A stretch of 64,000 bases of DNA from an uncultured Gammaproteobacteria bacterium (GTDB taxonomy: Bacteria; Pseudomonadota; Gammaproteobacteria; PS1; Pseudothioglobaceae), in assembly GCA_902509905.1 (NCBI GenBank), contig CABWZI010000001.1:1-64000 (forward strand), written 5' to 3'. Shown here one piece after another: positions 14,549-50,520 of this stretch. Numbering within the stretch: the first letter of the stretch is position 1; every line of letters starts with the position of its first letter. A program made the position numbers and the translations under genes. The notes under the pieces are model-generated. The model saw only the letters and a list, made by a program, of their open reading frames with translations. It searched no databases and was not told the origin of the DNA.

Positions 14549-14585
14549 ATCTAACATTTTTCGAATTATTTTTTTTGGAGTGCTT

Positions 14586-29073: not shown

Positions 29074-29142
29074 AAATGAAGATTTAAGGTCATTCGATGT
29101 GATACTAAGAGTATTTAATTGAGTATAAATAGGAGAGTAAAT

Positions 29143-30372: not shown

Positions 30373-30397
30373 ACTTTAATGTTTTGATCTCCTAAGT

Positions 30398-30430
30398 AGG
30401 GGCATGTTTATAGCGTGCCCCTTCTTTTTA
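30398..30430 (+). terminator. Attenuating terminator between binding protein and permease genes
   Basis: AGGGGCATG (30398-30406) and CGTGCCCCT (30414-30422) pair over nine positions with one G-T pair and a seven-base loop, followed by TCTTTTTA. It lies 25 bases after the binding-protein stop and 34 bases before the permease start. Such partial terminators commonly let binding proteins be made in excess of permeases. Confidence 0.8.
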
Positions 30431-30464
30431 TGAAATATAGAGTGTTAAACCATAATTAACTTGT

Positions 30465-31490
30465 ATGAAGCATAAGACTTTTTTTTGGTTCTTTTTACCT
30501 ACAGCGCTTGCGATGATTTTATTCATAGCGTTGCCCCTAACTTCTGTTGTGAGCCAGTCATTTCATGCCCCACATGACGAGGTATTGCTTGTTTCTGAAA
30601 TCTGCGATCCATTCGGCTGTGAGACAGAATCGACTATTGACCATCAGGCAACCGAACAACTGAAGAAAGATCAGCCCTTAGGAAAGTGGGTTGGATTTGA
30701 AATCTATACTGATCGAAACCATCTAGCCTTTAAAGAGGTTGCCGAGTTTTGGGAAAATAGGACAAGCTTCACTGGTTTTATTTCCAGTCTTAATAATCTT
30801 CAATTTTATAGGGCAATGGGATTCACTTTGACTTATGTCATTGTGGTAACCCCTTTGGTTATATTGTTTGGATTAATAATTGCACTGGCAGTGAACTCTC
30901 TGCATCGACACCTTAAAGGGCTTATGGTGTTCTTTTCATTGCTTCCAATGATTGTAACCCCCCTTGTTGGTTCTTTAATTTTATTTTGGATGATTGATGC
31001 GAGAGGAATAGTTGGCTCAGGACTCCAAGAGATATTTTCAGATCCAAATCTATCATTAAAGGCATCAACTGGGCTAACTTGGGTAACGCTGATTGTTTAT
31101 GGCGTGTGGCATTCCGCACCTTTCGCGTTTATTGTTTTTTATGCTGGTCTTCAAACGGTTCCTAAAGAAACTTTGGAGTCGGCAATGATTGATGGCGCTA
31201 CTCGTTTTCAACAAGTTATTCATGTTGTAGTTCCTCATCTGTCGCCACTAGTTGCTTTCGTGGCATTAATTCAACTGATGGATAACTTTCGAGTATTTGA
31301 GCCAATAGTTGGTTTTAGTGCATCAGCACATGCAACCTCACTCTCATGGATTATATGGAATGATATTGGTCAAGAAATCAGACTTTTTTCGTCTGCAGCA
31401 ACGACATCAGTTCTGACAATCATCGGAGTTGTTATTCTTCTAATGCCAGTTTTGATAAGAACGTGGCGTGAATTTAATCCGGACAAATGA
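30465..31490 (+). CDS. ABC sugar-type permease (MalF family)
   Basis: A 341-residue inner-membrane permease. The first membrane segment is FFWFFLPTALAMILFIALPL, a periplasmic loop follows to about residue 110, then further helices. The EAA loop near the C-terminal half reads PKETLESAMIDGATRFQQVI, the contact point with the ATPase. Its stop is one base before the ATG of the MalG-type partner. Confidence 0.92.
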   Translation: MKHKTFFWFFLPTALAMILFIALPLTSVVSQSFHAPHDEVLLVSEICDPFGCETESTIDHQATEQLKKDQPLGKWVGFEIYTDRNHLAFKEVAEFWENRTSFTGFISSLNNLQFYRAMGFTLTYVIVVTPLVILFGLIIALAVNSLHRHLKGLMVFFSLLPMIVTPLVGSLILFWMIDARGIVGSGLQEIFSDPNLSLKASTGLTWVTLIVYGVWHSAPFAFIVFYAGLQTVPKETLESAMIDGATRFQQVIHVVVPHLSPLVAFVALIQLMDNFRVFEPIVGFSASAHATSLSWIIWNDIGQEIRLFSSAATTSVLTIIGVVILLMPVLIRTWREFNPDK

Positions 31491-31491
31491 T

Positions 31492-32373
31492 ATGACTTCT
31501 AATCAAATTAAGAGACCATTGGGACTTCAGTTATTGATTTATGGCTTTGTGTTGCTTTGGTTAATTGTGGCCGCCTTTCCATTCTTTTGGACAATGTGGG
31601 GATCCTTTAAGGTAGAGTTAGATTTTTTCTCAAAGGGAGACTGGAAACATGCCATATCAGGGATTAGAACGCAGGCGGTATATGGAGAATCTTTTACAGG
31701 CGCAGGCTATGAGGGTGCATGGATTCAGGAAGAGTTTTGGCGCGCTTTTCTTAATACAGCAATAGTCTGTTTTTTTACTGTACTTACCTCACTAACTATT
31801 GCTACTTTGGGAGGGTACGCGCTTTCTAGGTCAGGCTTCCGTTATTCATTTTGGCTTCTAATAATAGCTCTTGTTTTTCGCGCTTTACCGCCAATAACTT
31901 TGGTTTCAGGATATCTTCCTCCATTTTATGCTTGGAATGTTTGGGGTTTATTGCCCACTACCATCATTGTGTTAGTGGCAATAAATCAGCCATTTACTCT
32001 GTGGATGCTTCACTCATTTTTTCAAACGATTCCGAAAGAGCTTGATGAAAGTGCTAAAGTAGATGGTTGCACACAGTTTCAAGCATTCAAAAATGTGATT
32101 ATTCCTGTCATGTGGCCTGGAGTAATTACGGCGGGCCTTTTCTCATTTCTTTTGGCTTATAATGATTTTGCTGTCACAGCTGTTCTTTTAAACCAAGACA
32201 ATCAAACAATGGTTCCAAAAATTGCTAGTTTTATGGGTACAACTCAAACAGAGGGTAATGTGATGTTTGCTGTAGCAGCAGTTGTTTCATCTATAATCCC
32301 ATTATTTCTTCTAGTATTATTCTTTCAGAGGCAGCTAGTAAGCGGACTTACTGCTGGAGCTGTCAAGGGATAA
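31492..32373 (+). CDS. ABC sugar-type permease (MalG family)
   Basis: A 293-residue permease with about six membrane helices and the EAA loop PKELDESAKVDGCTQFQAFK. ATG 31492, one base after the MalF stop, is preferred to a GTG at 31468 inside malF. The C-terminal part has LLAYNDFAVTAVLLNQDNQT, as in other MalG homologues. With the genes at 18706, 29143 and 30465 it forms a complete importer. Confidence 0.92.
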   Translation: MTSNQIKRPLGLQLLIYGFVLLWLIVAAFPFFWTMWGSFKVELDFFSKGDWKHAISGIRTQAVYGESFTGAGYEGAWIQEEFWRAFLNTAIVCFFTVLTSLTIATLGGYALSRSGFRYSFWLLIIALVFRALPPITLVSGYLPPFYAWNVWGLLPTTIIVLVAINQPFTLWMLHSFFQTIPKELDESAKVDGCTQFQAFKNVIIPVMWPGVITAGLFSFLLAYNDFAVTAVLLNQDNQTMVPKIASFMGTTQTEGNVMFAVAAVVSSIIPLFLLVLFFQRQLVSGLTAGAVKG

Positions 32374-32376
32374 ACC

Positions 32377-33987
32377 ATGGAAAAGTTCGATTATATTGTT
32401 ATTGGTGCAGGATCTGCAGGATGCGTATTAGCCAATCGTCTTAGTGAGAATCCTGCAAATACTGTTTGTCTTATCGAGGGCGGTGGAAGTGATAAAAGTC
32501 CTTGGGTCAAAATTCCTGCCGGCCTCTCTGTTGCTTACGATCATAAAAAACTTGATTATGCCTACAAGGGGGTTCCCCAAAAGCACTTAGATGACCGAGT
32601 CATTACAGTTAACCGAGGCAGATGTCTTGGGGGTTCAAGCTCTATTAATGGCATGATCTATATCCGAGGCAATAAGAATGATTATGATAATTGGGAAAAA
32701 CTTGGATGCAAAGGTTGGTCTTATAATGATGTTTTACCAATCTTTAAAAAACTCGAAAATGACAAGACTGGTGGGGATCCCCAATACCATTCGACAAATG
32801 GAGAGTGGCCAGTTGTTATGCCACAAGATATTAATAAGACTGCTAAACGCTTTGTAAAGTCTGCGGCTCATGTAGGTCTCTCGCATAATGCTGACTTCAA
32901 TGATGCCTCTCAATTAGGCCTCGGTATTTATAAGGTAAATCAAGATAAAGGTACTCGGGTAAATTCTTACAGGGCCTTTATTGAGCCCATTGTTTCTAGA
33001 CCCAACCTAACTATATTAACTCATGCAAGAGTTGAGACAATTAAAATTGAGGGTGATACTGCTAAATCCATAAAAATTCAAGTTAAAGGCATTGATAAAG
33101 AACTGTTCTGTAATAAAGAATTAGTGCTATCTGCTGGCGCTATTGAGTCACCAAGGATACTTTTGTCTTCTGGAATTGGCAATAAGAAGGAGCTTGAAAA
33201 AGAGGGAATTACATGCCACCTCAATGTTCCTGGAGTTGGCGAAAACCTTCAGGACCATTTGGATACCATGGTAACGGTTCGCTCAAACAAGGCAGAATCT
33301 ATTGGAGTTTCGTGGAGATCATTTTTGCCTCAAGTAATTACCTCACCTTTAAACTTTCTTTTGAGAAGAATGGGTTGGTGGACGAGTAATTTTGTTGAGG
33401 CTGGCGGTTTTGCAGCTACAAAACTAGGAACACCTGATTATCCAGATGTCCAGTTTCACTTTACGCCTATATATCGTAGCCACCGAGGAAGAAAATTTGA
33501 GTTCGGTCATGGCTACTCATTGTTTACTTGTTTATTGAGGCCTCATAGCAAGGGTTCAGTTAAGTTAAAGAGTGATGGTAACAAATATCAAGTCCTGATT
33601 GATCACAACTTTTTATCTGACTCTAGAGATGAGGCAAATATTGTTGAGGCCATCAAAAAAGCGAGAGAAGTTTTGTCATCTAAAGAGTTTGATGAGGTGC
33701 GAGGAGAGGAGATGGCTCCAGGACAATCTATTCAGTCAGATGAGGAACTATTGGCTTATATTCGTCGCACATCCCTTACAGTTTATCATCCAGTTGGGAC
33801 CTGTAAGATGGGCGCCGATGATTTAGCAGTCGTCTCACCAAGTGATTTAAAAGTAAAAGGTATGAATAACCTTAGAGTGATTGATGCCTCGGTCATGCCA
33901 AGCATTGTGAGTGGCAATACCTCTGCCCCAACCATGATGATTGCTGAGCGAGGAGCTAGAATGATATTAAATGGGATGGGAATATGA
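32377..33987 (+). CDS. GMC-family FAD oxidoreductase (choline/alcohol dehydrogenase type)
   Basis: A 536-residue flavoprotein: FAD motif FDYIVIGAGSAGCVLANRLS at the start, GGSSSINGMIYIRGN, GAIESPRILLSSGIG, and catalytic His and Asn in YHPVGTCKMG and SGNTSAPTMMIAERG. The family oxidises primary or secondary alcohols, including choline (BetA) and polyols. No betaine aldehyde dehydrogenase is adjacent and the gene sits in the sugar-type operon, so choline is not favoured. It is three bases after malG and overlaps the next gene by four bases. Confidence 0.9.
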   Translation: MEKFDYIVIGAGSAGCVLANRLSENPANTVCLIEGGGSDKSPWVKIPAGLSVAYDHKKLDYAYKGVPQKHLDDRVITVNRGRCLGGSSSINGMIYIRGNKNDYDNWEKLGCKGWSYNDVLPIFKKLENDKTGGDPQYHSTNGEWPVVMPQDINKTAKRFVKSAAHVGLSHNADFNDASQLGLGIYKVNQDKGTRVNSYRAFIEPIVSRPNLTILTHARVETIKIEGDTAKSIKIQVKGIDKELFCNKELVLSAGAIESPRILLSSGIGNKKELEKEGITCHLNVPGVGENLQDHLDTMVTVRSNKAESIGVSWRSFLPQVITSPLNFLLRRMGWWTSNFVEAGGFAATKLGTPDYPDVQFHFTPIYRSHRGRKFEFGHGYSLFTCLLRPHSKGSVKLKSDGNKYQVLIDHNFLSDSRDEANIVEAIKKAREVLSSKEFDEVRGEEMAPGQSIQSDEELLAYIRRTSLTVYHPVGTCKMGADDLAVVSPSDLKVKGMNNLRVIDASVMPSIVSGNTSAPTMMIAERGARMILNGMGI

Positions 33988-34997
33988 ATCAGAATTTTCA
34001 AAAAGAAAAAAACTTAGTTTTAGATTATTACAAAGCCTTGGATAAAGCTGAGGGTGATGAAATTTCAAAAGTCTTAAGCAGCCATATTGGTAAAGATTAT
34101 ATTTGGAGAGGGTTTCACCCTTTTAATGAACAATCTGATGCAGAAGAATTATCCAAAGTCTTCTGGCAGCCATTTCGCCATGCCTTTAAAAATATGCAAA
34201 GAAGGATGGATATTTTTATAGCTGGTAAAAACCAGATAGATGGATTTGAATCCGTTTGGGTCGTCTCCATGGGTCACTTGATGGGCTTGTTTGATAATGA
34301 GTGGCTTGGCATTCAGCCATCAAGAAAAATGGCTTTTCTGCGTTACTGTGAATTTAATAAAGTTCAAGATGGCAAGATTACTGAAACAGCCATGTTTTTT
34401 GATATCCCTCATGTGATGATTCAAGTTGGTTTAACTCCTTTCCCGCCTCAAACAGGAGCACATCTTGTTCAGCCAGGACCAATGACTCACGAAGGTTTGC
34501 TTTTTGATCAGCAGGATGCCGCCGAGGGTGAAAAAACTCTTGCCTCAATAAATTTCATGGTTGAGGATATGAGAGATTGGAAGCATACTAATGAATTACC
34601 TCTAGTTGACGAGCTTAGAAGAAGCTGGAAAGAAGATATGATCTGGTGGGGGCCTGCTGGAATTGGAGCAACCTATACCATTGAAAGATATGCCGAGCAG
34701 CATTCAGGGCCATTTAGAGCTTCTTTTAAAGATCGGATATCCAATGGACATCTTTGCAAATTAGCTGAAGGCCATTTTGGTGGTTTTTTTGGATGGCCTA
34801 ATCTTACACTCACTCCAACAGGGGGCTTTATGGGTATGCCTGCAACTGGAAAGCCAGGCGATATGAGAGTCATAGATATGTACAGGAGGGAAGGAGACAT
34901 GCTTGCTGAAAATTGGATCTTTATTGATCTGTTGCATTTTTGGAAACAACAGGGCGTTGATATTTTAGAAAGGATGGCTCAAAATCCAAGAAATTAA
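33984..34997 (+). CDS. Double SnoaL-like protein C
   Basis: A 337-residue protein with two SnoaL-type halves. Half 1: WRGFHPFNEQSDAEELSKVF, MQRRMDIFIAGKNQ, MAFLRYCEFNKVQDGKI and FFDIPHVMIQVGLTPFPP. Half 2: MIWWGPAGIGATYTIERYAE, GPFRASFKDR, VIDMYRREGDMLAENWIFID. The halves share the pattern of a Trp-rich start and a closing 'D-x-x-H' segment. It overlaps the GMC gene by four bases (ATGA), suggesting they act together. No reaction is known. It closes the LacI-regulated stretch. Confidence 0.7.
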   Translation: MNQNFQKEKNLVLDYYKALDKAEGDEISKVLSSHIGKDYIWRGFHPFNEQSDAEELSKVFWQPFRHAFKNMQRRMDIFIAGKNQIDGFESVWVVSMGHLMGLFDNEWLGIQPSRKMAFLRYCEFNKVQDGKITETAMFFDIPHVMIQVGLTPFPPQTGAHLVQPGPMTHEGLLFDQQDAAEGEKTLASINFMVEDMRDWKHTNELPLVDELRRSWKEDMIWWGPAGIGATYTIERYAEQHSGPFRASFKDRISNGHLCKLAEGHFGGFFGWPNLTLTPTGGFMGMPATGKPGDMRVIDMYRREGDMLAENWIFIDLLHFWKQQGVDILERMAQNPRN

Positions 34998-35065
34998 TTT
35001 TTTCTTGTGTTGACATGTAAATTCATTTAACATCCAAATTCTATACATCATTAGGTTGAGTGCTG

Positions 35066-36586
35066 GTGAGAAGAGGTAGAAGTAAAAACGTTAGAGAAGT
35101 TACAAACTTTCAGCAGGCTCCTTACGGCCAAAAAAAGAATCCCTTTCAACCTATGTCAATCTATTCAGAAGATGAGATTGAGTCAATTCATCAGGCGTCA
35201 TTGAAAGTGTTGTGCGACACAGGGATGGACATCCAGTCACCGCGTGCTGTCGAAATTCTCAAAAGAGAAGGCGCAATGATTGGGAGTGATGGAAGACGTG
35301 TTAGGTTTGATCCAGACTTCGTGATGGAAAAAATTTCCACTACGCCAAGTGAATTTACTCTTCATGGCAGATATAAAGAGAGGCATGTTCATGTTGGAGG
35401 TCAATCCTTTATCAACACTATGGTCTCGAGCGCTCCAAATGTTTCTGATCTTGACAGAGGGCGAATCTTAGGTAACTTTGAAGACTATTCAAACCTGATC
35501 AAGCTTGGTGAAATCTTGAATACTGTGCATGCTCTTGGCGGTTACCCAGTTGAGCCATGTGATATAGATGTTCGGGAGCGTCATTTACATGCGGTATCTG
35601 CTGCCGCTCGATTATCGACAAAGCCACTATTTGGTTATGCTATTGGCAGTGAGAGAATGTTAGATGCCATTGAAATAGTTCGAATTTCAAGAGGCATTGA
35701 TAAAGAAACGCTTTTAAAAGAGCCTTCAATTACGACTGTCGTCAATGCGAACTCACCTCTAGTTTATGATAAAGCCCTTATGGAGGGAGCTATAGAAATG
35801 GCTGAGCATAATCAGCCAGTAATCTATACCCCATTCACTTTGGCCGGTGCTATGGCGCCTATTACTGTTGCAGGAGCTCTTGTTCAGCAGAATGCAGAGT
35901 CTCTTGCTGGACTTACTTTTCATCAATGCGTTAATCCAGGAGCACCGGCAATTTATGGAAGCTTCACATCTAATGTTGACATGAAATCAGGCTCCCCTGC
36001 CTTTGGGACCCCAGAATATACACAGGCCACAATTGCGAGTGGACAGCTTGCAAGAAAATATAAAATCCCTCTTCGCGCCTCAAATGCAAATGCCTCTAAT
36101 GCTGCAGATGAGCAATCCGTTTATGAATCTCAGATGTCTTTGTGGGCCTGTCTTTTAGGTCAAGTTAATTTTATCCTACACGGACATGGTTGGATTGAAG
36201 GCGGGCTCTGTGCATCTTATGAGAAGGTCATTTTGGATGCAGAGATGAGTCAAATGATGGAGGCTTTTTTAACTCCTTCTCCGGTCAATAAAGATACGCT
36301 TGGTGTCGATGCAATTGCGGAGGTTGGTCCAGCCGCTCATTTTTTTGCAGCTCAGCAAACATTGGATCGATATGAAACAGAACACTACAACCCTCTATTA
36401 TCTGATTGGAGAAATTTTGAGTCATGGAGGGATGCAGGCTCTGAGACTGCCTCTCAGCGCGCCAATAAAATATGGAAGCAGCTCTTGGCTGATTACAAAG
36501 AACCTAAACTTGCACCTGAGGTTGAAGAGGAGCTCTCAAGTTTTGTGGATAAAAGAGTTTCAGAAGGTGGTGCACCACCTTTATAA
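35066..36586 (+). CDS. MttB-family protein, paralogue 2, non-pyrrolysine
   Basis: A 506-residue MTTB-family protein. Its start is basic (RRGRSKNVREV) and the conserved blocks TVVNANSPLVYDKALMEGAI, QPVIYTPFTLAGAMAPITVA and GSPAFGTPEYTQATIASGQL align with paralogues 1 and 3. No in-frame TAG interrupts it. GTG 35066 is preferred over GTG 35060 because the sequence just before it (GAGTGCTG) mirrors the GAGTGCTT before the ATG of paralogue 1. It is followed by a dimethylglycine-dehydrogenase-like gene, so a glycine-betaine or DMSP methyltransferase role is attractive but unproven. Confidence 0.85.
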   Translation: MRRGRSKNVREVTNFQQAPYGQKKNPFQPMSIYSEDEIESIHQASLKVLCDTGMDIQSPRAVEILKREGAMIGSDGRRVRFDPDFVMEKISTTPSEFTLHGRYKERHVHVGGQSFINTMVSSAPNVSDLDRGRILGNFEDYSNLIKLGEILNTVHALGGYPVEPCDIDVRERHLHAVSAAARLSTKPLFGYAIGSERMLDAIEIVRISRGIDKETLLKEPSITTVVNANSPLVYDKALMEGAIEMAEHNQPVIYTPFTLAGAMAPITVAGALVQQNAESLAGLTFHQCVNPGAPAIYGSFTSNVDMKSGSPAFGTPEYTQATIASGQLARKYKIPLRASNANASNAADEQSVYESQMSLWACLLGQVNFILHGHGWIEGGLCASYEKVILDAEMSQMMEAFLTPSPVNKDTLGVDAIAEVGPAAHFFAAQQTLDRYETEHYNPLLSDWRNFESWRDAGSETASQRANKIWKQLLADYKEPKLAPEVEEELSSFVDKRVSEGGAPPL

Positions 36587-39113: not shown

Positions 39114-40430
39114 ATGAGTTTTATAGCATCTAAAAGACATCATGCAAAAATAGGTTCTCACCTAAAAGGTGAAGAGGATATTTACACTCTAAATAAACAT
39201 GCGCTCGGCCCAGGAGAGCTTGCTGAATCTGAGTGGCTTAAGGCGGGTTTAGCCAATCCAAATATGACCAAAATTAGGGAGTATCGACTCAAAAGAGTAC
39301 GTGAAAAACTTATCGAATTTGACTGTGCCGGTATTCTTCTCTATGACCCATTAAATATTCGCTATGCAACGGACAGCACCAATATGTCTTTGTGGACATC
39401 CCATAATGCTGCTCGTTACGCGCTTGTTATGACTGAAGGCCCTGTCATTATTTTTGAGTTTGATGCACATGAGTTTCTTTCTAATCACAACCCCTTAATT
39501 ACTGAAGTCAGACATGCCATCACGTATCTATATTTTACTGCTGGAGATAAGAGTAAAGAGAAGGCCAAGATATGGGCATCTGAAATTGTTGATATAGTCA
39601 AGGAGCATGGCAAAGGCAATAAAAGATTGGCTCTCGATCACTGCGCACCTGAAGGAATTCACGAGCTCCAGTCAAATGGCCTAGAACTTGCAAATGGTGA
39701 AGAGGTGATGGAGCTTGCTAGACTCATTAAGTCAGACGACGAGATGATGGCTATGCGGCGCTCAATCTTTTCGTGTGAAAAGTCTATGGAGCTGATGCGT
39801 CATCATTTTAAGCCAGGCATAACTGAGCAAGAGCTTTGGAGTCGCTTTCAAATGGAGGCAGTTTCAAGGGGGGCAGAGTGGATTGAGACGAGGTTGCTCG
39901 CCTCCGGCCCCAGAGCAAATCCTTGGTATCAGGAGTGTTCATCTCGACCTATATTAAGCGGCGAATTAATGGGTTTTGATACAGACCTAGTTGGCTCTTA
40001 CGGCTACTGTACTGATATGTCTCGGACATGGCTATGTGGTGATGAAAAGCCTAATGATGAGCAAAGAGAAATCTATACCATGGGCTATGAGCAAATTCAA
40101 AACAATATCGAGTTGTTAAAACCAGGCACCACATTTAAAGAGTTAACACTGAACTCTAAAGAGTACTCAAAGGATGAGTTTCGCCATTACTCGGTCCTTT
40201 TTCATGGTGTGGGTTTGTGTGATGAGTTTCCTGCGATACCATTTAGTTGGGAGTTAAATGAGAACAGTTTTGACGGGGTTCTTCAGCCTGGGATGGTGAT
40301 GTGTGTTGAGACTTATGTTGGAAGATATAGCGGAGGTCCAGGTGTGAAACTTGAAGAGCAGGTGTTAATCACTGAAAGTGGATATGAACTATTAACAAGT
40401 TATCCATTTGAAAAAGATTTGTTAAGCTAA
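39114..40430 (+). CDS. dddP: DddP-type M24 metalloenzyme, candidate DMSP lyase
   Basis: A 438-residue M24 (creatinase-fold) protein. From memory of Roseobacter DddP sequences it shares IREYRLKRVREKLIEFDCAG, then DPLNIRYATDSTNMSLW, EWIETRLLASGPRANPWYQE and LFHGVGLCDEFPAIPF. Putative metal and catalytic residues are Asp289, Asp291, Asp301, His364, Asp370, Glu399 and Glu414. Their spacing nearly matches the DddP set (Asp295, Asp297, Asp307, His371, Asp377, Glu406, Glu421), and a Tyr lies five residues before the His as in DddP. DddP splits DMSP into DMS and acrylate. Other M24 enzymes (creatinase, Xaa-Pro peptidase) are less likely. It is 17 bases after the FAD/GcvT gene. Confidence 0.8.
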   Translation: MSFIASKRHHAKIGSHLKGEEDIYTLNKHALGPGELAESEWLKAGLANPNMTKIREYRLKRVREKLIEFDCAGILLYDPLNIRYATDSTNMSLWTSHNAARYALVMTEGPVIIFEFDAHEFLSNHNPLITEVRHAITYLYFTAGDKSKEKAKIWASEIVDIVKEHGKGNKRLALDHCAPEGIHELQSNGLELANGEEVMELARLIKSDDEMMAMRRSIFSCEKSMELMRHHFKPGITEQELWSRFQMEAVSRGAEWIETRLLASGPRANPWYQECSSRPILSGELMGFDTDLVGSYGYCTDMSRTWLCGDEKPNDEQREIYTMGYEQIQNNIELLKPGTTFKELTLNSKEYSKDEFRHYSVLFHGVGLCDEFPAIPFSWELNENSFDGVLQPGMVMCVETYVGRYSGGPGVKLEEQVLITESGYELLTSYPFEKDLLS

Positions 40431-40462: not shown

Positions 40463-41512
40463 ATGAAAATAAGCAAAGAATTAATTTCTAGTATAGATAA
40501 TCAGAATATTTATCTTGTTAATATTAAAAATGACAATAATTTCAGTGTTTCATTTTCAAATTTCGGTGGCTATATCCATCAAGTTTTAATTCCTTATGAC
40601 AATAATCCAGAATTAACTGAGGATGTAATTCTTGGCTATGAAGATCCTTTAGGTTGTATAACGGATAGAAGCTTTTTCAATGTAATTACTGGAAGAGTCT
40701 GCAATCGAATGAAGGATGCTGAATTTACACTTAACTATAAAAAATATAAATTAAATAATAACAATGGAAATAATCATCTTCATGGAGGAAGCACAGGCTT
40801 TAATAAGAGGCTTTGGACGATAGACTCAATTGATGAGAATAAAGACGAAGTCATCGTATCAATGTCCTATCTATCTTCACATCTAGAAGAAAAATATCCT
40901 GGTAATTTATCCTGTACTACTCAATATAAGTTCAATAGCAAGAACGAATTTTCAATTTGTTATTCAGCTACGACAGATCAAGACACTATTGTCAACATTA
41001 CTAATCATAACTATTGGAACTTTCATGGTCACAATGATTATTATGGAAAGATTCTTAATCATAGTGCTCAGATTTATGGGAATCAGGTTTGTGAGGTAGA
41101 GTCAGACCTAATACCCAATGGCAATCTCTTAAATGTTGCTAATACCAAATATGACTTCCTAGAAAGTAACCCTATTTCGAAAGAGCTTATAGATCAAGGC
41201 GGTATTGATATTAACTATGTTGTTAATAACGAAAAAGAAATGAAGAAAGTGGCAAGGGTATGGAGTGATCTAACAGGTATGGGGGTTCAGTACTCTAGTG
41301 ATCAACCTGGACTTCAGTTTTATACGGGTGGCAACATGCATCCTGAGTACCAAGGCAAGAATCAGAGAACTTATGGAAAAAATTATGGTCTTTGTATGGA
41401 AACTCAATTTTTTCCTGATGCAATCAATCAGGATAACTTTGAGAGCCCAATTTTAAAAGTGGGCGAAACCTACACTTCAAATACTATAATTAAACTTTCA
41501 AATAATTATTAG
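40463..41512 (+). CDS. Aldose 1-epimerase
   Basis: A 349-residue GalM-family protein with NHLHGGSTGFNKRLW, the catalytic His in NITNHNYWNFHG and the catalytic Glu in LCMETQFFPDAINQ. It interconverts alpha and beta anomers of aldoses. The gene is visibly more AT-rich, with more Asn and Lys codons, than its neighbours, which may mean a separate origin. Its place between a DddP-like gene and an MDR gene has no obvious metabolic link. Confidence 0.88.
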   Translation: MKISKELISSIDNQNIYLVNIKNDNNFSVSFSNFGGYIHQVLIPYDNNPELTEDVILGYEDPLGCITDRSFFNVITGRVCNRMKDAEFTLNYKKYKLNNNNGNNHLHGGSTGFNKRLWTIDSIDENKDEVIVSMSYLSSHLEEKYPGNLSCTTQYKFNSKNEFSICYSATTDQDTIVNITNHNYWNFHGHNDYYGKILNHSAQIYGNQVCEVESDLIPNGNLLNVANTKYDFLESNPISKELIDQGGIDINYVVNNEKEMKKVARVWSDLTGMGVQYSSDQPGLQFYTGGNMHPEYQGKNQRTYGKNYGLCMETQFFPDAINQDNFESPILKVGETYTSNTIIKLSNNY

Positions 41513-41516
41513 AAGC

Positions 41517-42593
41517 ATGAGCATAATCCCAAAAACAATGAGCGCAGTTTTGACAACTGGCCATGGTGGTTATGAGGTGCTTGAGTACCGAAATGACATT
41601 GAAGTTCCCACCCCTAATTCAGATCAAGTTTTGATTAAGGTTTTAGGGGCGGGCATCAACAATACCGATATTAACACCAGAACTGCTTGGTATTCAAAGT
41701 CAGTCAAAGGAGAAACCAATGCTAGTAATTCTCAAGGGGAAGATGACGATGGAAGTTGGTCTGGTGAGCCTTTAGAATTTCCAATCATTCAGGGCGCAGA
41801 CTGCTATGGAGAAATCGTTGCTGTTGGAGACGGAGTCGATGCTGGTCGAATTGGTGAACGAGTATTGGTTAGAACGATGCAGCAGTATGCTGTGGCATAC
41901 AGGCCCTATGAGTGCTGGACGATGGGATCAGAATGCAATGGTGCTTTTTCAGAATATATGATCGCTTTTAGTGATGAAAGTTTTAAGATTGAAAGTAATT
42001 GGTCGAATGCGGAACTGGCATCCATACCCTGTGCATATTCCACGGCAGAAAACCTATTGGAGCGTTCAGATGTCAAAGAGGGTGAAGTTGTTCTTATCAC
42101 AGGAGCGTCAGGTGGTGTTGGGTCAGCTGCTATTCAGCTAGCTAAGAGAAGAGGCGCTAGTGTTGTTGCTATATCAAGCAAAGCAAAGTCAGATTTAGTT
42201 AAAGAAATCGGTGCAAATACAGTTGTTAATAGAGAAGCTAAATTAACAGACTCTATAGAAATTGAGAGTATTGATGTCGTTATTGATCTGGTTGCAGGGG
42301 AGCGCTGGGGAGACTTGCTAGATGTATTAAAAAAAGGTGGGAGGTATGCAGCAGCTGGGGCTATCGCAGGGCCAATTGTTGAACTTGATGTTAGAACACT
42401 GTACTTAAAAGACTTAGTTTTAATAGGGTGTACTTTTCAAGATCGAAAAGTTTTTGAAAATTTAATTGGATATATCGAAAGAAACGAAATAACCCCCCTC
42501 GTTTCTAAGACTTATCCTTTAAAAGATATTATTGCTGCTCAAAAAGACTTTGTATCAAAGAAGTATGTGGGTAAGTTGGTTCTTTTGCCATAA
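41517..42593 (+). CDS. MDR-family alcohol dehydrogenase/quinone oxidoreductase
   Basis: A 358-residue medium-chain dehydrogenase. The N-terminal domain has KVLGAGINNTDINTRTAWYS and IIQGADCYGEIVAVGDGVD; the cofactor motif is VLITGASGGVGSAAIQLAKR. The catalytic zinc GHE signature is replaced, so it looks like a zinc-independent oxidoreductase. Its stop overlaps the ATG of the next gene (TAATG), so it is cotranslated with the HpbD-like epimerase. It does not look like AcuI. Confidence 0.82.
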   Translation: MSIIPKTMSAVLTTGHGGYEVLEYRNDIEVPTPNSDQVLIKVLGAGINNTDINTRTAWYSKSVKGETNASNSQGEDDDGSWSGEPLEFPIIQGADCYGEIVAVGDGVDAGRIGERVLVRTMQQYAVAYRPYECWTMGSECNGAFSEYMIAFSDESFKIESNWSNAELASIPCAYSTAENLLERSDVKEGEVVLITGASGGVGSAAIQLAKRRGASVVAISSKAKSDLVKEIGANTVVNREAKLTDSIEIESIDVVIDLVAGERWGDLLDVLKKGGRYAAAGAIAGPIVELDVRTLYLKDLVLIGCTFQDRKVFENLIGYIERNEITPLVSKTYPLKDIIAAQKDFVSKKYVGKLVLLP

Positions 42594-43699
42594 TGAAAAT
42601 TAAGCAAATAGATGTTTTTCAATTGGATCTTCCTTATTCTGGGGGAATCTACCTCTTATCAGGTGGGAGGGAATACTCATTTTTTGATGCTACTATTGTT
42701 CGAGTTTTAACTGACTCAGGTATTGAAGGATGGGGTGAAAGCACCCCTTTCGGTTCTAATTATATAGCGGCCCACGCTAAGGGAGTGCGCGCTGGTATTG
42801 AAGAGATGGCTCCGAGCTTGTTGGGAAAAGATCCTAGGCACTTAGACCGAATCAATGAAGTAATGGATAATGCTTTAGTTGGACATAATCATGCAAAAAC
42901 ACCACTCGATGTTGCCTGCTGGGATATTTTTGGAAAGTCTGTAGAGATGCCTGTTTGCGACCTATTGGGTGGTAATACCAATGAACCGTTGCCCTTAATT
43001 TCTTCAATCCATGCTGGTGAACCCGACGATATGAGAGAGCGAGTGAAAAGACACCGTGATTTTGGGTATAGAGGGCACTCAATTAAGCTTGGTGATGATC
43101 CTCATGATAATGCAAATAGAATTGAAGCCTGTTTAGCAGATCGAAAGAGTGGAGAGTATTTTATTGTAGATGCAAATGGAGGACTGACTGTCGAATCTGC
43201 ACTTAGGTTGTTGAATATTCTTCCGAGTGGATTGGATTTTGCATTAGAGGCTCCATGTGCAACCTGGCGAGAAAACCTCTCTCTAAGAAGACGCACCTCT
43301 GTGCCAATAATTTGGGATGAACTTGCTCTAAATGAAGCAGATATTCTTCAGATTGGATCTGACGATGGAGCTGAAGGTATTGGTTTAAAAATCTCAAAAA
43401 ATGGGGGTTTGACGAAGTGCCGCAGACAAAGAGATATTTGTCTTGCAGCTGGCTATACAATGAGTATCCAAGACACAACGGGTTCTGATATAGCATTTGC
43501 TGCTATTGTCCATTTAGGTCAGACACTTCCAAAAAAATATCTTCGATGTATTCTTGACTGCAGAGATATGGTCTCAGTCAAAACTGCTGATGGAGAATTT
43601 AAAGCTACTAACGGTTTCGTATCTGCACCAAAATCATTTGGATTAGGCATTACTCCTCGATTAGATGTTTTGGGCGATCCCGTTATTAGCTATAAATAA
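42593..43699 (+). CDS. Enolase-superfamily enzyme, HpbD-like (hydroxyproline betaine epimerase or cis-3-hydroxyproline dehydratase)
   Basis: A 368-residue mandelate-racemase/muconate-lactonizing type enzyme. Catalytic Lys165 (HSIKLGDD) and Lys266 (GLKISKNGGL) and metal ligands Asp193, Glu219 and Asp242 are visible. Blocks such as GIEEMAPSLLGKDP, MDNALVGHNHAKTPLDVACW and the ending FGLGITP resemble 4-hydroxyproline betaine 2-epimerase (HpbD) and cis-3-hydroxyproline dehydratases more than sugar-acid dehydratases. It overlaps the MDR gene by one base and converges with the FAD oxidoreductase. Epimerase versus dehydratase cannot be settled from sequence. Confidence 0.8.
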   Translation: MKIKQIDVFQLDLPYSGGIYLLSGGREYSFFDATIVRVLTDSGIEGWGESTPFGSNYIAAHAKGVRAGIEEMAPSLLGKDPRHLDRINEVMDNALVGHNHAKTPLDVACWDIFGKSVEMPVCDLLGGNTNEPLPLISSIHAGEPDDMRERVKRHRDFGYRGHSIKLGDDPHDNANRIEACLADRKSGEYFIVDANGGLTVESALRLLNILPSGLDFALEAPCATWRENLSLRRRTSVPIIWDELALNEADILQIGSDDGAEGIGLKISKNGGLTKCRRQRDICLAAGYTMSIQDTTGSDIAFAAIVHLGQTLPKKYLRCILDCRDMVSVKTADGEFKATNGFVSAPKSFGLGITPRLDVLGDPVISYK

Positions 43700-43705
43700 T
43701 AAAAG

Positions 43706-45058
43706 TCATTTTTCTTTTCCTGCCATCAGTTCTTTCCAGCGCATATAGCTATTAACACCAAACCACATGAATGGTTTTGGCATTAATTTTTTTGGTGCCT
43801 CTTCGTCAACAAAGTCAGGAATAAGACTATTGACGGTTCCAGTTATTTTTTCGGCCGTAATGACACCAATCGCAGTACCTTTTGCAGTCCCAAGACCATT
43901 TTGACAACAAGCTGAGTAGATGCCTTCATCAACCTCTCCCTGAGCAAAAACATTATTAAGGCTCAGACAAAGTCGCCCTCCCCATGAGTAATCCATAGAC
44001 ACTTTATCAAGCATTGGAAAGCGTGCTTTAAATGATTCATTATGGCTATTGGCAGCTCCACTCATAAATGAATCTGAGGCTTCCAAGCTTGGGTTATAAG
44101 ACCATCTATTTCGAACTAGGATTCTATTGCCGCCGATTCCAGAAATGCGCCTTACTGAAGAGCCCATAGCGTCAGCTGAAGTCAATCCCCACTCTTGGCT
44201 GCCTCCCAGCATATTGGACTCATCTAAAGTTAACTCTCTTGATAAAGATGAGTAGGTAAAAATAGTCATTAACCTATTCTGAAAGTATCCAAATTTTTCA
44301 ACTAAGCCGTTGACAGCTAATATAACTTTTGGGCTTGATATTGATCCAAGATTAGTTTTAGCCTTCCATACTTTTTGTCCATCATGCATGCCTTCCTCTT
44401 CAAGAGAAATGACCGGAGAGTTTTCATAAATCGTTGTATTGGGACTCTTAGAGACGCCATCTGCGAGTGACTGGATGTAAAGCGCAGGTTGTAGCATCGC
44501 TGTACCTGGTGTCCATAGACCATTTAGGTAGTAATCTATTCCTGTCAGGTCTTTCATTTCTTGAGAGTCGAGCATCTTATAGCTTTCACTCGTCTTGTCC
44601 AGGTGCTTTGCATACTCTGTATTGAAATTCACCCCTTTTGGGGTTGCTGCTGCGTTCGTTTTTCCAACCAGCTGAATTGCCTCAGGCGGCATCTCATATT
44701 CTTCTGAAGCATTCTTGGCAAATTCAATTGCAGAGCGATTAATCAGGGTTTGTTCGCGATCTTTATCGAGGCTTCCTACGTAATCATCTGAAGCTAAGTT
44801 GTGGGGTAAGTCAATCATAAAGCCCGAGTTTCTCCCAGCGGGTCCTTCTGAAATTTCACAGGCTTCGAGCAGAGCAATTTTTGCTTTATTATCGATTTGA
44901 ATTAAACGCCTAGCCACAGAGAGGCCGGCAAAGCCTCCGCCAATAATCAAGTAGTCTGCGTTGAGATGATCTGAAAGTTTTGGGTTAACCTTTCTTTTGG
45001 GGAGGATTTCCTTCCAGCCCGTATCACCGGGATTTTTGGGTAACTTGATCTGATTCAT
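43706..45058 (-). CDS. DAO-family FAD-dependent oxidoreductase (PuuB / amino-acid oxidase type)
   Basis: A 450-residue flavoprotein with ADYLIIGGGFAGLSVARRLI near residue 34 and the AGRNSGFMIDLPHNL segment typical of gamma-glutamylputrescine oxidase-like enzymes. The C-terminal half has SWGGRLCLSLNNV and CCQNGLGTAKGTAIG. It oxidises a primary or secondary amine. In this six-gene operon it could be an N-methyl- or D-hydroxyproline oxidase. It is the last gene of the operon and converges on the HpbD-like gene with a six-base gap. Confidence 0.85.
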   Translation of the reverse strand: MNQIKLPKNPGDTGWKEILPKRKVNPKLSDHLNADYLIIGGGFAGLSVARRLIQIDNKAKIALLEACEISEGPAGRNSGFMIDLPHNLASDDYVGSLDKDREQTLINRSAIEFAKNASEEYEMPPEAIQLVGKTNAAATPKGVNFNTEYAKHLDKTSESYKMLDSQEMKDLTGIDYYLNGLWTPGTAMLQPALYIQSLADGVSKSPNTTIYENSPVISLEEEGMHDGQKVWKAKTNLGSISSPKVILAVNGLVEKFGYFQNRLMTIFTYSSLSRELTLDESNMLGGSQEWGLTSADAMGSSVRRISGIGGNRILVRNRWSYNPSLEASDSFMSGAANSHNESFKARFPMLDKVSMDYSWGGRLCLSLNNVFAQGEVDEGIYSACCQNGLGTAKGTAIGVITAEKITGTVNSLIPDFVDEEAPKKLMPKPFMWFGVNSYMRWKELMAGKEK

Positions 45059-45063
45059 TTATT

Positions 45064-46566
45064 TTAATCTACTGACTCTTCTGGAGCACGATCTGAGAGA
45101 TCAATCCATATTGTTTTGAGTTCAGTGTATTGATCATGAGCATGAATGGAATTATCTCTCCCACCAAAACCTGACTGTTTATAGCCTCCAAATGGCGTAC
45201 TCATGTCACCCTCGCCGTAACAGTTAACTGTCACTGTGCCAGCTTTAATGGCTCGTGCAGCTCTGATTGCTTTTTTACCGTTCGAGGTGAAAACACTGGC
45301 AGCTAATCCATACTCAGTATTGTTTGCAACTGCAATAGCCTCGTCGAAAGATTTGACAGTAATAACTGAGAGGACAGGTCCAAAAATTTCTTCTTGTGCA
45401 ATTTTAGAATCTGGGTCTACCTGATCGATAATGGTAGGAAGGACATAGTTAGGTTTTTCAGTCGTGCCGCCAACTAAAATGTTGTCCTGTTTGAGATAGC
45501 TGCATACTTTTTTATAATGTTCCTCATCTACTAAAGAGCCAAGGTAATTGGATGGGTCGAGAGGATCACCTGTCTTCCAATCTCTAAGATGTGCAAGTAC
45601 TTTTTCAAGTAAAGTCTCTTTAATGTTTTCTTGAACAATGAGTCTTGAGTTTGCTGAGCAGTTTTCTCCCATATTCCAAAATGAAGCATTCACAATATGC
45701 TCTGCAACTAAATCTAAATCTTCAGCATCATCCAGAACAATTGCCGGGTTTTTTCCACCGCACTCGAGCACAACCTTCTTTAGATTCGAGTCTGCTGAGT
45801 ATCGAAGAAAGCGTCTTCCAGTCTCAGTAGAGCCAGTAAAAGAGACCATGTCAATATCAGAATGAAGTCCAATGGGTTCACCTACATCCGGCCCCATACC
45901 CGGTATAACATTTAGGACGCCTCTCGGGATTCCAGCATCAATAGCGAGCTCAGCAAGTCTTAGAGCGGTTAGGCTTGTTTGCTCTGCTGGCTTTACAATC
46001 ACAGAGTTGCCAGTGGCAAGTGCGGGCGCTATTTTCCAAGCCATCATGAGAAGAGGAAAGTTCCATGGCAAAACGCAGCCAACAACTCCAATGGGTTCAC
46101 GAACAATGACCGATAAGGCATCCTCTCCTGCTGGCGCAGTTTGATCGTAGACCTTATCAATTGCTTCAGCATGCCAGAGCAGACAATCAATCGTTTCTGG
46201 CAAATCAATCATAGCACAATCACGAACTGGCTTACCTGAATCGACGCTCTCCATAACAGCCAGCTCGTTTAGATTTCTTTTAATGAGCTTTGATAATTTT
46301 ATGAGGGCTTTTTTTCTTTCACTTGGATGAAGTTTGGACCAGTGCCCTTGGTCGAACGCCTCCCTTGCTTTGATAACAGCGTGGTCCACATCATCTGCAT
46401 TGCAGGCTGCAACTTGTGCGATAACTTTGCCTGTTGCAGGGTTTTTAGTTTCAAATGTTTTTCCTGATTTTGAAGATTGAAATTGTCCATTGATGAACGC
46501 GTTAGTTGGGAAGTTAAGTGAATTTGCAATTGCACTGTATTCCTCATGGGTTAGAAGATCTGACAT
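45064..46566 (-). CDS. Aldehyde dehydrogenase (PuuC / betaine-aldehyde dehydrogenase type)
   Basis: A 500-residue NAD-dependent aldehyde dehydrogenase. Landmarks are GVVGCVLPWNFPLLMMAWKI, the catalytic Glu in VVLECGGKNPAIVL, the catalytic Cys in WNMGENCSANSRL and the EEIFGPVLSV block. It is closest in look to PuuC/betaine aldehyde dehydrogenases. It lies five bases before the oxidase gene on the same transcript, forming an oxidase-aldehyde dehydrogenase pair. The exact aldehyde is unknown. Confidence 0.9.
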   Translation of the reverse strand: MSDLLTHEEYSAIANSLNFPTNAFINGQFQSSKSGKTFETKNPATGKVIAQVAACNADDVDHAVIKAREAFDQGHWSKLHPSERKKALIKLSKLIKRNLNELAVMESVDSGKPVRDCAMIDLPETIDCLLWHAEAIDKVYDQTAPAGEDALSVIVREPIGVVGCVLPWNFPLLMMAWKIAPALATGNSVIVKPAEQTSLTALRLAELAIDAGIPRGVLNVIPGMGPDVGEPIGLHSDIDMVSFTGSTETGRRFLRYSADSNLKKVVLECGGKNPAIVLDDAEDLDLVAEHIVNASFWNMGENCSANSRLIVQENIKETLLEKVLAHLRDWKTGDPLDPSNYLGSLVDEEHYKKVCSYLKQDNILVGGTTEKPNYVLPTIIDQVDPDSKIAQEEIFGPVLSVITVKSFDEAIAVANNTEYGLAASVFTSNGKKAIRAARAIKAGTVTVNCYGEGDMSTPFGGYKQSGFGGRDNSIHAHDQYTELKTIWIDLSDRAPEESVD

Positions 46567-47475
46567 TTAACTACCCTCCTGTTTGATTTGATTGACAGTT
46601 TGATTCATGACTCGAATGACTTGTTCTAGTTGACGCTTGTCGTCTTTATTCAGTTTTTGCAGTGGCTTTCGTGGAGGTCCTACGGGAAGTCCTCTCATGA
46701 TTGATCCGTGTTTGATGCATTGGATAAATTTTCCGCCTTGCTCAAGAACTCTCATCAAAGGCATCATTGCTGACATGATTCGCCTCCCTTTATTGAAGTC
46801 CCCTTCAACTCTACAAGCCTCATAGAGAGCAACATGAGCTTCTGGTGCGAAGTTAGAGCCTGCACACACCCATCCACTCGCCCCCCATGCAAAGAACTCT
46901 AGCGCCTGATCGTCCATTCCACAGCAAAGCTGAATGTGTGGATAATCTCTCGCCAAAAGATGAAGGCGGTTTATATCACCACTGCTCTCCTTTATTGCGC
47001 AAAAGTTAGATGACCTGCCCACCCTATCAAGATACTCCTCACCCATCATTGAACCCATTCTTCCGGGATAGTTATAAAGCATAATAGGAAGATTAGCGGC
47101 CCTATCAATTGCGAGTGCATGAAGAGCATTTTCTCTTTCCGTTGGGAGCGCGTATGGGGGAGTCGCTATTAAAATTCCGTCCGCACCTATTTTGGCAGCC
47201 TCTTCAGCAAAGAATACCGAGTCCTCAGTGCGAATGGCACCTGTACCTACAATACATGGCACTCTATTATTAATAATATCTTTTGAAATCTTCATGACCT
47301 GAAGGCGCTCTTTAGTGTCCTGGGCATAGTACTCACCCGTTGTTCCTGCAACGACTATGCCATGAACACCACTGCTAATGAGATCCTCAATAATAGGCTC
47401 AATAGCATCAAAATTGATTGCATGATTATCATCATACGGAGTCAATACCGGGGTGTAGATTCCTTCAAACTTCAT
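46567..47475 (-). CDS. DapA-family lyase/deaminase (possibly pyrroline-4-hydroxy-2-carboxylate deaminase)
   Basis: A 302-residue TIM barrel of the dihydrodipicolinate synthase family. Schiff-base Lys162 is in FCAIKESSGD, Tyr134 in MLYNYPGRMG and the Thr-Thr pair in AGTTGEYY (residues 43-50). The C-terminus (GLPVGPPRKPLQKL) resembles deaminases and dehydratases of sugar and proline catabolism more than DapA itself. With an HpbD-like enzyme and a ketoglutarate-semialdehyde-dehydrogenase-like enzyme nearby, a hydroxyproline pathway role is plausible. No base lies between its stop and the ATG of the aldehyde dehydrogenase. Confidence 0.82.
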   Translation of the reverse strand: MKFEGIYTPVLTPYDDNHAINFDAIEPIIEDLISSGVHGIVVAGTTGEYYAQDTKERLQVMKISKDIINNRVPCIVGTGAIRTEDSVFFAEEAAKIGADGILIATPPYALPTERENALHALAIDRAANLPIMLYNYPGRMGSMMGEEYLDRVGRSSNFCAIKESSGDINRLHLLARDYPHIQLCCGMDDQALEFFAWGASGWVCAGSNFAPEAHVALYEACRVEGDFNKGRRIMSAMMPLMRVLEQGGKFIQCIKHGSIMRGLPVGPPRKPLQKLNKDDKRQLEQVIRVMNQTVNQIKQEGS

Positions 47476-48978: not shown

Positions 48979-50520
48979 TTAATGCTCCTGATTCAGCGCC
49001 TCCATTTTAGGAATTGTTGTTTCCCTTTTAGCGATGTAATCCAAGAGCTCTTCATCTTTTGCTTCATCCAGCTTTGGCTCTTGATAATCTTCAAGTAGTT
49101 TTTTTGCTCCTTCAAGCCCTCTTTGAATTGTATCTTTGCTTCCATCAGCCTGCCATTGCTCAACAGAATTATTGTCAAATAGTTTAGGCATAAAAAAGGC
49201 CCTTTGAAAGTTCTCCATTGTGTGCTGATGACCCAGGTAATGACCACCAGGACCTACATCTCTAATCGCAGCTAGACCCTCCTCGAAGTCATCCCATCGA
49301 ACTCCTTCAGCCATTCTATATCCCATTTCACACTGCTCTGCATCCACCACAAATTTTGCCATTGAGCAGTGCATTCCTGCCTCATTCCATCCTGCAGAAT
49401 GCCAAATATAGTTTGCACCAGATAAAAGAACAGCCATCATTGTTGATGCACTCTCATATCCTGATTGAGCATCGAATACTTTTGAGCCACCCAAAGTATT
49501 TGAGCTTCTCCAGGGAACTTTATAATGTCTTGCCATTTGACCAATCATAAAGTTCATTAGAGAGATTTCGGGCGTCCCTGCCATTGGAGCACCAGACTGC
49601 ATTGATACTGTAGCTAAATAATGACCATAGATCGCAGGCGCTCCTTTTCGGATAACCTGAGTGTATGCGAGTGCTGATAAAGCCTCCGCATTGACTTGTG
49701 CCACAGTTGGAGCAACACTGGCTGGAGTGTTAGCGCCACCAAGAACAAAAGGAGAGCAGAGTACTGGCTGATTGTGGGCAGAAAAAACTCTCAGTGCAGA
49801 GAGCATAGTTTGATCCCATACCAGTGGAGAGTTTCCATTAATATTTCCAGTAACAACGGCATGACTATCTATGAACTTTTCACCAAAGAGAATCTTGCAC
49901 ATCTCAATTACATCTTCAGCATTCTTGCCACTACTAGTCATCCCCATAAAGGTTTTATCAGAGTGTTTCATGGATGAATAAGTGATTCTTAGATGCCTAT
50001 GAGAAATTGCATGATCCATGGGTTCTACGATGTGATGGGCGCTTGAATGAATAGCAGGGAGCATGTGAGAAAGCTTATGAAAATTAGCAAGATCATCCAG
50101 CGTAGGCATGCGCCTATTATTTTCAAGGTCGGTGAGGAAAGGCGCCCCTGTCATTGGGACAAATATAGAGTTATTACCACCAATTTCTAGTGACTTCTCT
50201 GGATCTCGCGCATGCATTGTGATGCTTTCTGGAATAGACGTTATTAGTTCACGAATGAGGCCTCTATCGAAGCGCACCCTCTCACCCTTAACGTTAGCTC
50301 CGGCTTTCTTCCATTGTTCCAGTGCAATTGGATCATGAAATTCTACGCCAACCTCTTCCAGAATAGATAATGAAGCATCATCCATTTTCTCAATCTGCTC
50401 TTCATTCATCGGTTCTGTAAGAGGGATATTTCTCTTCAGCGTAGGGAGCATTTCAATTTTTACTTTCAGACGGTCAGATCTTCTTGCTGCTCGACCGAGT
50501 CTTTCTGCAGTGGTTGACAT
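48979..50520 (-). CDS. MttB-family protein, paralogue 3, non-pyrrolysine
   Basis: A 513-residue MTTB-family protein that leads a six-gene minus operon. It starts MSTTAERLGRAARRSDRLKV and has the conserved GNINGNSPLVWDQTMLSALR, QPVLCSPFVLGGANTPASVA and GAPMAGTPEISLMNFMIGQM blocks. No in-frame TAG is present. Because the operon continues with two SDRs, a DapA-family enzyme, an aldehyde dehydrogenase and an amine oxidase, and an HpbD-like gene lies opposite, (hydroxy)proline betaine is a reasonable substrate guess. Compare Eubacterium MtpB, a non-pyrrolysine MttB acting on proline betaine. Confidence 0.86.
   Translation of the reverse strand: MSTTAERLGRAARRSDRLKVKIEMLPTLKRNIPLTEPMNEEQIEKMDDASLSILEEVGVEFHDPIALEQWKKAGANVKGERVRFDRGLIRELITSIPESITMHARDPEKSLEIGGNNSIFVPMTGAPFLTDLENNRRMPTLDDLANFHKLSHMLPAIHSSAHHIVEPMDHAISHRHLRITYSSMKHSDKTFMGMTSSGKNAEDVIEMCKILFGEKFIDSHAVVTGNINGNSPLVWDQTMLSALRVFSAHNQPVLCSPFVLGGANTPASVAPTVAQVNAEALSALAYTQVIRKGAPAIYGHYLATVSMQSGAPMAGTPEISLMNFMIGQMARHYKVPWRSSNTLGGSKVFDAQSGYESASTMMAVLLSGANYIWHSAGWNEAGMHCSMAKFVVDAEQCEMGYRMAEGVRWDDFEEGLAAIRDVGPGGHYLGHQHTMENFQRAFFMPKLFDNNSVEQWQADGSKDTIQRGLEGAKKLLEDYQEPKLDEAKDEELLDYIAKRETTIPKMEALNQEH

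Follow-up and report, generated by a model that had tools for sequence, protein, structure and literature searches.

The gene analysed here lies in a window of 64,000 nucleotides (the whole stretch of DNA that was analysed) from an uncultured member of the Pseudothioglobaceae, and the host that carries this DddP-like gene is a sulfur-oxidising marine bacterium with a genome of 1.52 Mb in 46 contigs. Its closest named relatives are uncultured Gammaproteobacteria, Candidatus Thioglobus and Candidatus Pseudothioglobus, which puts the window in the SUP05 group. The gene is an uninterrupted 438-aa ORF with an ATG start, and it is surrounded by the following features:

29119-32373, forward strand: candidate ABC importer, assigned from translations and not from a family search
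29119-30372, forward strand: candidate substrate-binding protein of this importer, from its translation
30465-31490 and 31468-32373, forward strand: two ABC permeases, from their translations
32377-33987, forward strand: GMC oxidoreductase, choline-dehydrogenase-like (BetA 478 bits vs a cut-off of 732)
33984-34997, forward strand: SnoaL-like two-domain protein, found upstream in most sibling operons
35060-36586, forward strand: MttB-superfamily methyltransferase MttB1, 508 aa (PF06253, 604 bits), with no in-frame stop and hence no pyrrolysine codon
36682-39096, forward strand: dimethylglycine-dehydrogenase (DMGDH) homologue with FAD/DAO and GcvT parts, 804 aa (human DMGDH 5l46, 586 bits)
39114-40430, forward strand: DddP-like M24-fold protein, 438 aa, with predicted metal ligands D289, D291, D301, H364, E399 and E414, together with Y359 and the candidate base D370
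40463-41512, forward strand: aldose-1-epimerase-like gene, variably present among sibling loci
41517-42593, forward strand: medium-chain dehydrogenase/reductase (MDR), near M24 in nearly all sufficiently long loci of the genus
42593-43699, forward strand: enolase-superfamily protein, nearest to cis-3-hydroxy-L-proline dehydratase (363 bits, cut-off 500)
43706-47475, reverse strand: convergent set of three genes, with similar proteins near M24 in loci L089, L102 and L161
43706-45058, reverse strand: DAO-type oxidase of the convergent set
45064-46566, reverse strand: aldehyde dehydrogenase of the convergent set
46567-47475, reverse strand: DHDPS-family lyase of the convergent set, a generic match
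48979-50520, reverse strand: second MttB-superfamily methyltransferase, from family profile matches

MttB1, the DMGDH homologue and the M24 gene follow one another in the same orientation, the first two separated by 95 bp and the last two by 17 bp. The linkage that the first-pass annotation had drawn to MttB and to a dimethylglycine-dehydrogenase-like gene is therefore real, both genes lying directly upstream. Most of the genus keeps this order, with the MDR gene downstream of M24 in nearly all loci that extend far enough; the aldose-1-epimerase-like gene is probably not part of the core because only part of the sibling loci carry it. MttB1 is similar (320 bits) to three solved members of its superfamily, including the glycine betaine methyltransferase 9yce, and is a divergent paralogue, scoring 604 bits on PF06253 vs about 700-740 for most others. 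The host genome encodes five MttB proteins, three of them in the window, inside a span of 36 kb (14580-16121 and 35060-36586 on the forward strand, 48979-50520 on the reverse strand), and only one corrinoid protein was detected in it, on another contig (C6:62231), with an MttB gene about 5 kb away. Divergent to the second MttB gene lies a further aldehyde dehydrogenase gene (50691-52139, forward strand), whose best models are alpha-ketoglutaric-semialdehyde and dioxovalerate dehydrogenase (482 bits, below cut-off).

The M24 protein of the window matches Peptidase_M24 (PF00557, 113 bits) and Creatinase_N (PF01321, 26.4 bits), both above the Pfam gathering score. Its nearest solved structures are the DddPs of Ruegeria lacuscaerulensis (RlDddP, 4rzy; phmmer 404 bits, E 6.7e-120; 44.6% identity over 408 positions) and Roseobacter denitrificans (RdDddP, 4b28; 381 bits), every other M24 enzyme scoring below 70 bits, and it shows only 24-28% identity to the remaining M24 proteins of its own genome. 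With both DddPs it shares the fold family and the blocks NIRYATDSTNM (aa 81), EWIETRLLASGPR (aa 255) and HGVGLCDE, the last contained in FHGVGLCDE at aa 363. Residues D289, D291, D301, H364, D370, E399 and E414 correspond, in this order, to D295, D297, D307, H371, D377, E406 and E421 of RdDddP, and Y359 corresponds to Y366; in RdDddP, Asp295, Asp297, Asp307, His371, Glu406 and Glu421 are the metal ligands, and Tyr366 and Asp377 stand above the metals (PMC4108388). All the blocks and the eight residues listed in the first-pass annotation, including the tyrosine five residues before the histidine, were thus found where it had placed them, and the DddP numbering that it had used was right, since the residues map one to one onto the published RdDddP positions.

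The six metal ligands, Tyr366 and Asp377 are all present in the window protein, but this pattern does not discriminate. Among 96 aligned relatives, the most distant at about 35% identity, all had the same residue at seven of the eight positions, and 92 had it at Asp377 (RdDddP numbering). The proteins that share these residues include an M24 protein of Rhizobium phaseoli whose gene adjoins betaine-monooxygenase-like (GbcA/GbcB-like Rieske) genes. The pattern is missing from three aligned M24 paralogues of the host's own genome, which have neither Tyr366 nor Asp377. Because nearly the whole family carries it, the eight-residue pattern marks the wider family and not DMSP lysis, and we rejected it as proof of that activity. 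Of the 89 positions invariant within the DddP clade, 78 are retained in the window protein and 11 are changed, for example T35G, A103Y, G282S and Y384F.

On the NCBIfam DddP equivalog model (NF043017) the window protein scores 477.7 bits and does not reach the cut-off of 600. We built a first tree of 73 rows and a wider one of 96 rows, from which the verified fungal and Oceanimonas DddPs were left out. The Pseudothioglobus M24 sequences formed one clade in both (SH-aLRT 100), which sits with f70-group proteins from alphaproteobacteria and a small number of other sequences. RlDddP lies in a separate clade of 44 rows (support 100), and the two clades together are supported at 99. A topology constrained to unite the window clade and the rows around RlDddP was rejected by the AU test (p = 0.00013); these rows are those under one supported fork and were named after the tree was seen. 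The window protein therefore falls outside the clade of the verified bacterial RlDddP, which by the first-pass annotation's own standard counts against the DddP assignment, and its sequence places it in a sister clade. Both types occur together in one sibling genome (G020): one of its M24 genes is of the window type (72% identity), and the product of the second reaches 639 bits on the DddP model and is unchanged at each of the 89 DddP-invariant positions. The search of viral contigs for relatives of the window protein found none. In two cases (L026:10001-11312 and C4:94542-95853 of genome G009) the M24 gene is broken into a pair of overlapping matches, the G009 copy also containing one in-frame TGA, which would reflect a frameshift, a pseudogene or an assembly error. 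Separately, a contig binned as Chloroflexi carries, through possible transfer or mis-binning, a fragment (L027:3-716) with 62% identity to the window protein, adjoined by an aldehyde dehydrogenase gene.

These results bear on the idea that the window gene encodes a genuine lyase of DMSP (or DMSOP), being a divergent DddP that releases DMS and acrylate in vivo; its place beside betaine genes would then reflect that the two substrates are osmolytes imported together. DddPs are its closest characterised homologues, and the DddP clade holds a verified DMSP lyase whose metal ligands, Tyr and Asp are all kept in the window protein, as are most of the invariant positions. Moreover, characterised DddPs span a wide identity range: the verified fungal enzymes are 32-50% identical to RdDddP, and FgDddP, at 32%, conferred DMS production on E. 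coli carrying its gene (PMC4108388). Pseudothioglobus is also listed as a predicted DMSP degrader (PMC13310141), a prediction that DmdA can explain in the closed siblings, DmdA being found just above its cut-off in three of four Pseudothioglobus genomes. In the host genome of the window a DmdA-like protein reaches 365 bits, under the cut-off of 410.

Against this idea stand the score under the curated cut-off, the position outside the RlDddP clade and the separate above-cut-off DddP of the sibling genome. The relatives of the window protein also include plant- and soil-associated Rhizobium and Paraburkholderia proteins, and DMSP is not expected as a main substrate for these bacteria. Finally, unlike in DddP systems, YhdH/AcuI (TIGR02823, cut-off 297) was not found above cut-off in any of the four Pseudothioglobus genomes, of which two are single-contig assemblies with 99% completeness, the best match per genome scoring 78-87 bits. 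No AcuI gene was seen beside the M24 relatives among ten neighbours scanned, and the MDR gene of the window was rejected as a candidate AcuI (57 bits vs 440). This absence is moderate evidence, because in roseobacters AcuI is likewise unlinked to dddP and bacteria without AcuI exist (PMC3338564). We consider a dedicated DMSP lyase rather unlikely here, DMSP lysis by the window protein being possible but unproven. What stands of the initial label, candidate DMSP lyase, is that DddP is the closest characterised homologue; the diagnostic value of the pattern, the NCBI cut-off, the RlDddP clade and AcuI do not bear it out.

The neighbourhood, by comparison, recurs, and the betaine link is broader than the first-pass annotation had noticed. 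An M24 gene encoded with MttB and DMGDH homologues is conserved across lineages: both are found near M24 in f70 alphaproteobacteria (L082, L084 and L085; 52-54% and 45-46% identity, respectively), in L133 and L139, and beside the second copies of G020 (L078) and G280 (L096). MttB alone lies near M24 in L152, L153, L159 and L115, and DMGDH alone in L110, L114, L141 and L158. Overall, MttB, DMGDH or a GbcA-like Rieske protein occurred within 9 kb of M24-family members in 28 of the 86 sampled rows, the other 58 having no such neighbour within that distance, and the tree implies a minimum of 12 switches between the two states. Five of the linked M24 genes (L078, L096, L110, L114 and L115) score above the NCBI DddP cut-off, so the linkage to betaine genes extends to genes that annotation would call dddP. 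A literature search, with most subscription journals outside its reach, found no report of a link between DddP and MttB or betaine genes.

The association also holds at the genome level. Among 385 alphaproteobacterial genomes, 11 had an MttB gene no more than 10 kb from M24, at 12 places in total vs 0.83 expected; 68 genomes had M24, 59 had MttB and 50 had both (OR 95, p 4e-38). This odds ratio is an upper guide because the counts treat genomes as independent though kin share genes, and because both sets are defined by score thresholds, the M24 set comprising DddPs and their relatives and the MttB set being broader than the MttB1 subfamily. The association persisted in genomes without DmdA (OR 115), and that between M24 and DmdA was gone among genomes with MttB (p 0.70).

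Other neighbours vary among lineages. The Rhizobium phaseoli gene lies beside the Rieske genes together with a 4-hydroxyproline epimerase and a betaine importer, and GbdR-like regulators are encoded near several M24-family members. Two distant loci (L096:5380-15622 and L133:5349-13158) combine M24, MttB and DMGDH with threonine 3-dehydrogenase and glycine C-acetyltransferase, these two scoring above their cut-offs; these neighbours hint at glycine or C1 metabolism, by which the substrate is not fixed, and a betaine of homoserine or threonine type could possibly be converted to glycine. The L096 cluster additionally carries threonine synthase. The idea of homoserine betaine, a betaine-lipid headgroup, as the substrate was not adopted, as the Tdh, Kbl and ThrC neighbours that suggest it occur in only two or three loci. 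Elsewhere, a GbcA-like Rieske oxygenase (392 bits vs 670) is encoded close to a gene annotated as DddP on a Loktanella plasmid (L100:7920-11960), and a PehA-like phosphoric/sulfuric ester hydrolase gene (L110:12039-13565; 554 bits vs 900) and its 64% identical counterpart (L114:2008-3543) each lie near DMGDH and an above-cut-off DddP.

Since the M24 gene adjoins N-demethylation genes and travels with them across bacteria, methylated nitrogen osmolytes are its likelier substrates, and the protein probably acts on these rather than making DMS. In PMC12478193, marine genomes with MtgC are described as often having up to seven MttB paralogues with open substrates, and several MttB paralogues of Eubacterium as operating through one corrinoid protein. 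The five MttBs and single corrinoid protein of the host fit this picture, and we therefore read the operon as one for quaternary-amine betaine demethylation with an added M24 step. With a confidence only just above even, we take this step to be a DddP-like cleavage of a small, zwitterionic onium carboxylate at its C-N (or C-S) bond, within a cobalamin-dependent catabolic operon for N-betaines. In this scheme, the importer would take up a quaternary-amine betaine, MttB1 would pass one methyl group on to the corrinoid protein of the other contig (C6:62231), and the DMGDH homologue would oxidise further N-methyl groups to tetrahydrofolate-bound C1 units. The M24 protein, acting either before or after demethylation, would bind the substrate carboxylate through a dinuclear metal pair, with the onium group packed onto Y359 and a conserved Trp. 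D370 could then serve as the base for a DddP-like elimination, a chemistry carried over from DddP by homology, or a water molecule could be activated as in ordinary M24 hydrolases. The enolase, DAO, DHDPS and ALDH genes of the window and the 4-hydroxyproline epimerase of Rhizobium hint at hydroxyproline betaine. We did not adopt this pathway as the definite route, the enolase being nearer to cis-3-hydroxyproline dehydratase than to the hydroxyproline-betaine epimerase 4h2h/2pmq, and the DHDPS match being generic.

The hydrolytic option could also apply to the whole protein, which would then be an ordinary M24/creatinase-type enzyme (peptidase-, creatinase- or ectoine-hydrolase-like) feeding sarcosine, dimethylglycine or a similar amine to the DMGDH homologue. 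The two Pfam domains agree with such a role, and the threonine dehydrogenase and glycine C-acetyltransferase genes of L133 and L096 point to glycine or C1 metabolism. However, RlDddP had no measurable activity on Val-Pro (PMC5395565). In addition, the low identity to the M24 proteins of its own genome, and the conservation of Tyr366 and Asp377 in nearly all relatives and their absence from the three aligned own-genome paralogues, argue against an ordinary hydrolase, which we regard as improbable. Less probable still is a promiscuous onium-carboxylate lyase that would perform one reaction with different leaving groups on DMSP and on an N-analogue, such as beta-alanine betaine to give acrylate and trimethylamine: the DddP-like active-site set and the betaine linkage would suit it, but trimethylamine leaves less readily than dimethyl sulfide and no gene for handling trimethylamine was recognised in the operon. 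In its favour, known DddPs use both DMSP and DMSOP, and their DMSP Km, in the 14-17 mM range (PMC10686828, PMC5395565), shows that DMSP is not bound tightly.

The window differs from each of the known systems that it most resembles. Unlike RlDddP and RdDddP, the window protein belongs to a separate clade, scores 478 bits vs 600, departs from 11 of the 89 invariant positions and is encoded in a betaine operon. The window shares with the cobalamin-dependent glycine betaine demethylation of the MtgBCD type in marine bacteria, as far as described in the accessible part of PMC12478193, an MttB-superfamily protein, a DMGDH homologue and a single corrinoid protein encoded elsewhere with its own MttB, but differs from it in having a divergent paralogue as MttB1 and an M24 gene within the operon. 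The rhizobial clusters likewise place a same-family M24 gene (45% identical) beside a quaternary-amine demethylase, but they have a Rieske oxygenase instead of MttB and DMGDH, and their M24 lies on a different branch of the tree. We tentatively raise the idea, which we regard as doubtful, that the whole DddP-type M24 family was originally betaine-catabolic, cleaving N-onium carboxylates alongside MttB/DMGDH or Rieske demethylases, with marine DMSP lysis a derived or side activity. If true, this would help explain the millimolar Km, and dddP gene counts would overstate DMS production. Annotation based on residues or loose homology would in any case miscount a sister clade that shares the catalytic residues but has a betaine operon, and the tight link to MttB and DMGDH offers a testable hint at the substrate range of a family whose known enzymes bind DMSP weakly.
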